A DNA stretch of 64,000 nucleotides from Natrarchaeobius chitinivorans. GTDB lineage: Archaea > Halobacteriota > Halobacteria > Halobacteriales > Natrialbaceae. This document shows positions 11,480-38,757 of this stretch, piece after piece. The notes beneath the pieces were generated by a model, which had not been told where the DNA came from, made no database searches, and saw nothing but the letters and a program-made list of their open reading frames with translations. The stretch covers positions 1 to 64,000 of the forward strand of contig NZ_REGA01000012.1 of assembly GCF_003841505.1 (NCBI RefSeq), given 5' to 3'. A program made the position numbers and the translations under genes. Each line of letters begins with the position of its first letter. The stretch's first letter is position 1.

Positions 11480-11701
11480 GAGTACGGAGACACCGAGGCG
11501 CGAACGTCGCTGCTCGAGTTTCCCGGCGGCGTCTCGGTTTGGTTCGAGTACGAGGACTACCGCGTCGTGTTCGGGCTCGAGTTCACTGGGGCCTACATCT
11601 TCGTTCAGATATCTCTCGCCGGTATTCGTCGGGGGATCATATCCGTCATCGGTACGGTCGAGAAATCCACTGCATCGGCAGTCGGTTCGAACCTGCTATA
11701 G
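11480..11701 (+). pseudogene. Gene remnant interrupted by a family A element
   Basis: A 73-codon open stretch without its own start codon encodes segments such as SLLEFPGGVSVWFEYEDYR and GLEFTGAYIFVQISLAGI, which look like real beta-rich protein. It ends at a TAG that is the first three bases of the 183-bp family A element. Removing that element with one TA lets the frame continue for GILAC and stop at 11899-11901. I do not recognise the family. It could also be the frameshifted end of an older, longer gene. Confidence 0.4.
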
Positions 11702-11881
11702 TAACAACTGGAACTTTTTTACACTGATCGCACAGCTCACGGCTCACTTCGTTCCCCGCTCGCAATTCCGCGGTTCTCGCTCGTTCCACTCGCTCCGAAC
11801 CGCGCACGCTCCGAACCGCGCACGCTCCGAACCGCGCTCTCGTCGTGCGATCAGGTGTGCAGTGACTTCCAGTGGCTACTA
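11699..11881. mobile_element. Family A palindromic element, long 183-bp form
   Basis: The element begins TAGTAACAACTGGAAC and ends GTTCCAGT-like in inverse sense (CTTCCAGTGGCTACTA), with arms of about 37 bp that pair through GATCGCAC/GTGCGATC. It is flanked by TA at 11697-11698 and 11882-11883. About 108 extra bases occupy the centre, including a 16-bp unit (CGAACCGCGCACGCTC) repeated. The outer arms match the 80-bp copies elsewhere in the window, so this may be a less reduced relative. No transposase is encoded. Confidence 0.75.
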
Positions 11882-11965: not shown

Positions 11966-12449
11966 ATGGATATGCTGTCTGCCCTCCACTCACGTAGCAT
12001 TTCTCAGGTATGGCAGATTGCGATATCCGGTATGCTGGTCGCACTATAGTAACAACTGAAACGATTGACACACCGATCGCCGATCTGTCTGGCGATCGGG
12101 TGTGCAATGACTTTCAGTGGCTACTATAGTTGTCAGTGTTATTCTCGGCTGGGTGCTGGAATTTGAAACGGACGGGTTGATAACGGTAATCGGTGCAGTC
12201 ATTGCAGGAGGGATCGCAGGTACTCGGTCGGTTGACCCGAGCGCTGCTGGACTCCGCACCGGGCTTTTCGGTGCTAGTATCGGAATTTTGTTCTCCCTTT
12301 CCGACGTACTGATGATTGTTACGGAGTCAGCGGGCGTCATACCTGTGTTTATTTATACTAGTGGGTTCGCGCTGGTCGTAATGTCCCTGTTGGGGTGGGT
12401 CTTTGGTCGTCTTGGCGGGTGGGTGACGAATACGTTGAGTACACGCTGA
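11966..12449 (+). pseudogene. DUF5518-like membrane protein gene, split by family A element
   Basis: The N-terminal part (ATG 11966, MDMLSALHSRSISQVW...) runs to codon 12044-12046 and is then stopped by the TAG that opens the element at 12047. The C-terminal part resumes at 12129 with VVSVILGWVLEF and ends at TGA 12447-12449. Deleting 12047-12128 (80-bp element plus one TA) joins ...GMLVAL to VVSVILG in frame, giving about 133 residues with three to four membrane helices and the IAGGIAGTRS motif typical of DUF5518-like haloarchaeal proteins. The 82-bp insertion is not a multiple of three. The downstream half could still be translated from GTG 12117 inside the element. Confidence 0.8.
12047..12126. 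mobile_element. Family A palindromic element, 80-bp copy
   Basis: TAGTAACAACTGAAACGATT opens the left arm and the right arm closes with AATGACTTTCAGTGGCTACTA in inverse sense; the centre GATCGCC...GGCGATC forms the top of the hairpin. TA dinucleotides flank it at 12045-12046 and 12127-12128. The copy at 18628-18707 is its exact reverse complement over all 80 bp. Size, inverted ends and TA duplication are those of a MITE mobilised by a TA-targeting transposase (IS630/Tc1-like or similar). Confidence 0.88.
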
Positions 12450-18444: not shown

Positions 18445-18849
18445 ATGGTTGGTACGCGACTCAAGAAGATCAGCGTATATATTGGTCTGAAAACCAGATT
18501 GAAGGGATCACCGTAGGTATCTGCCTCACGTAATCGTTGGAAATATACGAAATTGACGCGACCACCTTGAGGAATACACGCTCTATATTCAGCAGCCGAC
18601 TTTTAGCACATTTCGGATAGGCCAATATAGTAGCCACTGAAAGTCATTGCACACCCGATCGCCAGACAGATCGGCGATCGGTGTGTCAATCGTTTCAGTT
18701 GTTACTATAGCTGCTTCGGTAATTGCTTACCCTGTACTTACCGTCGTTGATGGATCGTTGATCCCTCCGGGTTCCAAATCTTCGGTGTCCGCGCCCAGAT
18801 CTCGAGTCAGGACGCGGGTGTTCTTTAGGATGGGCGACGAGCACCACCT
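18445..18849. other. Intergenic region holding a family A element
   Basis: No gene is visible. It contains an ATTCAGCAGC...TTTTAG sequence (18589-18607), the 80-bp family A copy (18628-18707), and at 18818-18830 a TTCTTTAGG box about 30 nt before the reductase ATG that could be its promoter. Confidence 0.5.
18628..18707. mobile_element. Family A palindromic element, 80-bp copy (inverse)
   Basis: Exact reverse complement of the copy at 12047-12126. It starts TAGTAGCCACTGAAAGTC and ends CGTTTCAGTTGTTACTA, with TA at 18626-18627 and 18708-18709. Complete identity of two copies 6.5 kb apart points to recent transposition or gene conversion. Confidence 0.88.
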
Positions 18850-38546: not shown

Positions 38547-38741
38547 GTGACTGCCGTCCGGTGTCCCAGTTGTCTCGAGGACGAACGCACGGAACTCGAG
38601 CGTATCGTGACGGATTCGGGACTCAAGCGAACGTTCGAGTGTCGAAACTGCGGTCATCGCTGGGCGGTCTTTTTCTATAGTAACAACTGCAACGATGTAC
38701 ACACCCATCGCCGAACAGTCTGGCGATCCGGTGTGCAATGA
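38547..38741 (+). CDS. Zinc-ribbon protein with tail added by a family A element
   Basis: From GTG 38547: TAVRCPSCLEDERTELERIV, then FECRNCGHRWAVFF. CPSC and CRNC form a zinc ribbon of TFIIS-like spacing. The original stop codon TAG is split: its TA (38676-38677) is the target of the family A element at 38678. Reading now continues for YSNNCNDVHTHRRTVWRSGVQ-like residues (21 in all) to 38741. With the element removed the protein would end at ...WAVFF, 43 residues. Whether the longer form is stable is unknown. Confidence 0.6.
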   Translation: MTAVRCPSCLEDERTELERIVTDSGLKRTFECRNCGHRWAVFFYSNNCNDVHTHRRTVWRSGVQ

Positions 38742-38757
38742 CGTGCAGTGGCTACTA
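38678..38757. mobile_element. Family A palindromic element, 80-bp copy in a stop codon
   Basis: TAGTAACAACTGCAACGATG to GACGTGCAGTGGCTACTA, flanked by TA (38676-38677 and 38758-38759). It differs from the copy at 12047 by a handful of bases, some of them compensatory (CTGCAACG/CGTGCAG), which suggests the stem is maintained. Confidence 0.85.

Follow-up and report, generated by a model that had tools for sequence, protein, structure and literature searches.

The window (the whole stretch of 64,000 nucleotides that was analysed) contains a DUF5518 gene in two parts, separated by an 80-bp element that has a TA on either side. The features are collected in Table 1. When 11966-12046 is joined to 12129-12449, the product is 133 amino acids long, with no internal stop and a stop codon at its end, and it matches the Pfam DUF5518 profile over positions 1-112 with 28.5 bits, the cut-off being 27 bits. 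The downstream piece alone reaches 24.2 bits, which is under this cut-off, and its match starts from profile position 11. The insertion adds 82 bases (27 x 3 + 1), so that the reading frame is shifted in addition to being closed by stops. The right end of the element also contains an in-frame GTG, at 12117, from which translation could begin and give a DUF5518 protein shortened to 110 amino acids.

Table 1. Coordinates of the interrupted gene, the inserted element and its relatives in the window
Feature	Position	Strand	Evidence or remark
DUF5518 gene, 5' part (27 codons)	11966..12046	+	Pfam match of joined protein, homologs
DUF5518 gene, 3' part (106 codons and stop)	12129..12449	+	Pfam match of joined protein, homologs
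80-bp MITE (AAA subfamily)	12047..12126	+	sequence; empty site in ortholog
Left terminal inverted repeat TAGTAACAACTGAAA	12047..12061	+	places the stops TAG TAA in frame with the gene
Right terminal inverted repeat TAGTAGCCACTGAAA	12112..12126	-	
TA target duplication, left copy	12045..12046	.	ortholog's empty site has a single TA here
TA target duplication, right copy	12127..12128	.	single TA in empty ortholog
Twin copy, 80/80 bases identical	18628..18707	-	site unoccupied in nine related genomes
More divergent 80-bp copy (ends ...CTGCAA / ...CTGCAC)	38678..38757	+	
183-bp GGAA-subfamily member, same ends, GC-rich repeats mid-element, flanks CTA..TAG	11699..11881	+	

A first-pass annotation, made from the letters alone, had described the coordinates, both 15-bp ends and the flanking TAs as we find them, and the TAG TAA stop pair that it read in the left terminus indeed lies directly after codon 27. 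It had also proposed that removing the 80 bp and one TA restores a frame of about 133 residues, and this is borne out by the stop-free joined protein that passes the Pfam cut-off. Its phrase that excision restores the frame exactly is right about the joined frame, which is intact, but what this frame describes is the allele before insertion and not an observed excision. The word palindrome likewise needs qualifying: the inverted ends are real, but pairing is imperfect, occurring at 22/40 mirrored positions. The strand of the element folds at -36.6 kcal/mol, and its arms have a conserved asymmetry (TAGTAACA vs TAGTAGCC). The 183-bp relative lies just upstream of the 80-bp element.

Empty sites and the target of insertion

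An ortholog of the DUF5518 gene was found by protein search in a genome of another genus of the same family (G071, locus L141). It is intact, 133/133 residues aligning gap-free and 90% being identical, and has just one TA at the insertion point. At the DNA level the junction reads GCACTA/CCTGTC in the ortholog and, in the present sequence, GCACTA, the 80 bp and then TAGTTGTC, meaning that one TA has been duplicated. The two bases immediately to the right of the insertion are unlike those of the ortholog (GT vs CC), which counts against our best explanation. A further 16 more distant DUF5518 homologs have the junction without an insert, most of them with a complete N-terminus. A DNA search of 40 relatives with the 3' part of the gene gave weak matches only, and a search of genome contigs with the joined protein confirmed no relatives.

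Relatives have an unoccupied site for four other insertions of the same MITE family too. For one (L031), the empty site in genome G001 has one TA and flanks that are 100% identical (AACTA/GGCTC). For another (L010), the empty site with one TA is found in three genomes, and for the twin copy in the window (L002), likewise with one TA, in nine. The fourth (L014) has an empty site of fitting length in two congeners, but the site there is CTCG and not CTAG, which again counts against our best explanation. Two more copies (L029 and L017) are located within a different dispersed repeat, which in its other occurrences reads GGATTGCTG and not GGATAGCTG; because of this location, the empty-site evidence that they give is weaker. 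A further pair, L005 vs G001, was dropped because the junction is too divergent.

The insertion of the element at the DUF5518 locus is now demonstrated, and not merely inferred. The first-pass annotation had taken the single locus as direct evidence that the palindrome is mobile, which on its own it was not; such evidence comes from the empty sites. It was right, on the other hand, in naming TA as the target, with TA duplicated at the insertions and single in the empty sites. Within the genome, 34/35 copies have TA on both sides. The flanks CTA..TAG were counted in copies found without using the flanks, and are present in 5/17 copies of the same genome and 19/39 of other species (24/56 together); a figure of 18/35 is partly biased, the first query having carried flanks, and these two counts were used instead. 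Only 1.6% of the TAs in the window are in CTAG. Insertions thus favour CTAG.

A dispersed family in the genome and the Natrialbaceae

The genome (4.57 Mb in 48 contigs) holds at least 40 copies of the MITE, with about 89-100% identity. The end pattern, allowing one mismatch, has 247 matches in the genome vs 5 for the reversed control pattern, and in the window, allowing two mismatches, the ends occur 10 times vs 0.05 expected. Among the fetched loci, 95 elements are exactly 80 bp long, and 122/123 family ends have a partner end at most 420 bp away, the sole unpaired end being that of a member into which an IS has inserted (L065). Longer members, of 150-343 bp, are mostly of the GGAA subfamily and have GC-rich repeats in the middle. 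In several of these, which measure 152-343 bp (11699-11881 in the window; L043, L049, L053, L056), the GC-rich loop consists partly of tandem units of about 15 bp, GCACGCTCCGAACCGC, and the length classes suggest gain and loss of units. The DUF5518 gene is not the only one affected: another copy (L005, around 1504-1583) lies within a PIN-domain gene and divides it, and the frame obtained by joining the two parts passes the Pfam PIN cut-off.

The copies also have repetitive neighbours. Some MITE copies abut each other (G000:C11:132495-132589 and L065:740-798), consistent with insertion into the TA beside an existing copy. A second family of inverted-repeat elements, of about 85 bp and with ends TAGTACCCTCCCAA / TAGTGGCGTCCCAAG (L003, L006, L008, L011, L028), often directly adjoins the MITE family at a common TA. 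MITEs also insert into the dispersed repeat mentioned above (..TGATACGGATTGCTGTCCCGATGTCCCGGCGCACCCGCCGC..), many copies of which occur in each of the genus's four genomes (L017, L029; others at L076, L078, L104, L105 and L106).

At a threshold of E <= 1e-8 the family is found in 96/125 genomes (species) of the host family Natrialbaceae and in 22/29 of its genera, named carriers including Natrinema, Natronorubrum, Natronococcus, Natrialba, Halopiger and Halostella. Plasmids have 173 matching places in 50 records, including ones from Haloarcula and Halomicrobium, and the phage collection has no match. Two plasmids of Natrialba magadii have 16 and 12 matching places; they are from the strain of the genome paper (PMC3403918), in which MITEs are unmentioned.

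A candidate IS630 partner

The loci with a DDE_3 transposase in the same genome include an IS630-family element (G000:C3:237289-238343; L065:935-1989), which has itself inserted at a TA, within a MITE of the GGAA subfamily. Both of its transposase frames match NCBIfam NF033545 (IS630) above cut-off, with the DDE_3 domain PF13358. Relatives of this IS are present in 68/125 genomes of the family, a distribution that by counts alone does not obviously track that of the MITE (96/125). A sample of 30 copies, namely the one at L065 and 29 relatives (L112-L140), was compared. CTA precedes the left end in 28/30 and TAG follows the right end in 25/30, so that the boundaries are nearly all CTA|TAGTAAC... 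and ...TACTA|TAG; the left consensus is TAGTAACCGTTAGAA, which is TAGTAAC-like, and the right consensus, read inwards, is TAGTAGACGTTAGAA. In 26/30 copies an A7G heptamer lies where the two transposase frames overlap. Given that the heptamer is kept in so many copies, the two-frame transposase is probably made by programmed -1 frameshifting at this site, and is probably not a product of decay.

The consensus ends of MITE and IS are alike at 38/54 positions (27 bp per end), and none of 200,000 shuffles was as good. Without the first seven bases the likeness is 25/40 and still significant. Both kinds of element have the same left/right asymmetry, and they differ in one block, TTAGAA in the IS vs CTGRAA in the MITE. 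No autonomous element with the exact 15-bp ends of the MITE (TAGTAACAACTGRAA / TAGTAGCCACTGRAA) was found among the fetched loci. A search for full-length transposons with the same 15-bp ends, as the earlier reading had advised, gave IS630 elements with related ends and the same TA/CTAG boundaries, but not with identical ends. That reading had also called the element a MITE in need of an autonomous partner. There is indeed no transposase in it, and the IS630 group is a candidate partner, but mobilisation in trans is our inference. The likeness of the ends makes it likely that the MITE is moved by the L065 group of IS630 elements, or else by a close relative outside the sample whose ends match exactly.

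The bacterial IS630-family element ISY100 provides a model for how this may work. Its transposase is sufficient for cleavage, which falls at the 3' ends and two bases in from the 5' ends, and nearly all of the insertions are at TA, which is duplicated (PMC2170065). The preference of IS630 itself for CTAG is taken here from the title of a paper cited there, 'Preferential transposition of an IS630-associated composite transposon to TA in the 5'-CTAG-3' sequence'. By analogy, a transposase of the L065 group or a close relative, produced by -1 frameshifting at the A7G site, would recognise the common terminal 27 bp or so, bind both arms, cut the element out and paste it in at a TA, all in trans. 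As cleavage is two bases inside the 5' ends, excision by such a route would usually leave a footprint of a few extra bases. The perfect joined frame should for this reason be read as the state before insertion, and is no evidence of a clean exit.

Alternative explanations and known systems

The element is short, non-coding and without a transposase, with imperfect inverted ends of 15 bp; it belongs to many similar dispersed copies of fixed length and ends, has occupied and empty sites that differ by a target duplication, and shares with IS630/Tc1-mariner derivatives a duplicated TA target and a preference for CTAG. We hold it to be very probable that a non-autonomous MITE of the IS630/Tc1-mariner type inserted at a CTA-containing site of the DUF5518 gene, duplicating the TA and inactivating the gene. 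The palindrome could instead be ancestral to the locus, the real gene being the 110-aa frame that starts at the GTG supplied by its right end. As an account of origin this is refuted by the 90% identical ortholog and the 16 homologs without an insert, most with a full N-terminus, and by the dispersal of the family throughout the genome, which leaves it a negligible probability; neither the 82 bp as ancestral sequence nor an intact protein starting downstream in all relatives was found when these were looked for. It is equally hard to credit that the element is an extragenic palindrome of the REP, SMR or PATE kind. In its shortness and palindromic form it resembles the SMRs and near-terminal palindromes of Haloquadratum. 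SMRs and PATEs, however, do not duplicate their target, and PATEs lack terminal inverted repeats (PMC3119063), whereas the element has such repeats and its TA is duplicated.

Being mobile would not prevent the family from having been co-opted as a structured RNA, a terminator or a regulatory hairpin that is kept by selection, and the exact length of 80 bp and the complementarity of the arms, retained across genera, could be read in this way. The element has no match in Rfam, however, the hairpin is explained by the inverted ends, insertions break genes (DUF5518 and the PIN-domain gene), and several sites are empty in relatives; we regard co-option as very unlikely. A more serious competitor concerns only the identity of the partner, and holds that a different transposase, for example of another IS630 subgroup with exact ends, mobilises the element. 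The consistent difference in the TTAGAA / CTGRAA block speaks for this, as does the failure to find an exact autonomous partner among the fetched loci. Against it, the other DDE_3 loci of the genome have no MITE-like ends nearby, and the L065 group agrees with the MITE in target site, terminal heptamer and the asymmetry of left and right, and over much of the subterminal sequence; there is perhaps one chance in a few that it is correct.

Returning to the IS630-type MITE, the resemblance to IS630 and Tc1-mariner elements (ISY100, IS630) lies in the TA target and its duplication, the preference for CTAG, the short inverted ends and the DDE_3 transposase of the presumed partner. The differences are that the element has no transposase, that the IS found has ends which are related to the element's 15-bp ends without being the same, and that this IS is split into two overlapping frames. 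Stowaway-type MITEs of plants also target TA, and are moved by Tc1/mariner-type transposases with similar but non-identical ends; they are eukaryotic, and no close sequence relation is claimed. Among archaea, Methanosarcina mazei is described as having an 89-bp IS630-related MITE derived from ISMma9 (PMC3852290). As far as that description goes, it is similar in length and also transposase-free, but it comes from a different host group, with apparently few copies listed vs dozens here, and the two are likened by description and not by sequence. MITEs, SMRs and PATEs are known in the haloarchaeon Haloquadratum walsbyi (PMC3119063). These too are transposase-free, and the definition of MITEs given there (inverted ends shared with a transposon, and target duplication) fits the present element insofar as its ends are related to those of an IS and its target is duplicated; SMRs and PATEs differ from it in making no target duplication, and IS630 is absent from the main text of that paper. 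No description of the present family was found in the open-licence PMC literature, and one may exist elsewhere (e.g. ISfinder, Filee et al. 2007). Archaea are thus already known to have IS630-derived MITEs of roughly this length, and what we describe is a real, well-supported and widespread family of that kind.

A more ambitious and rather doubtful combination of ideas is that an 80-bp element of near-invariant length and asymmetric arms colonised at least 22 genera of one haloarchaeal family, passed horizontally to plasmids of other families, and is cross-mobilised by a diverse group of IS630 elements dependent on -1 frameshifting in archaea, while insertion of an IS inside a MITE, as at L065, might create composite transposons with MITE ends.

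At the locus itself, a piece of non-coding hitch-hiker DNA, of a familiar kind and well demonstrated, has broken a small membrane-protein gene. More generally, such MITE copies interrupt genes, mislead gene prediction and serve as strain markers, and a high-copy family is here documented with matched empty sites across most of one haloarchaeal family. With the candidate IS630 partner, trans-mobilisation can be tested cleanly in archaea, and so can programmed frameshifting, for which the conserved slippery site of this partner offers a case.
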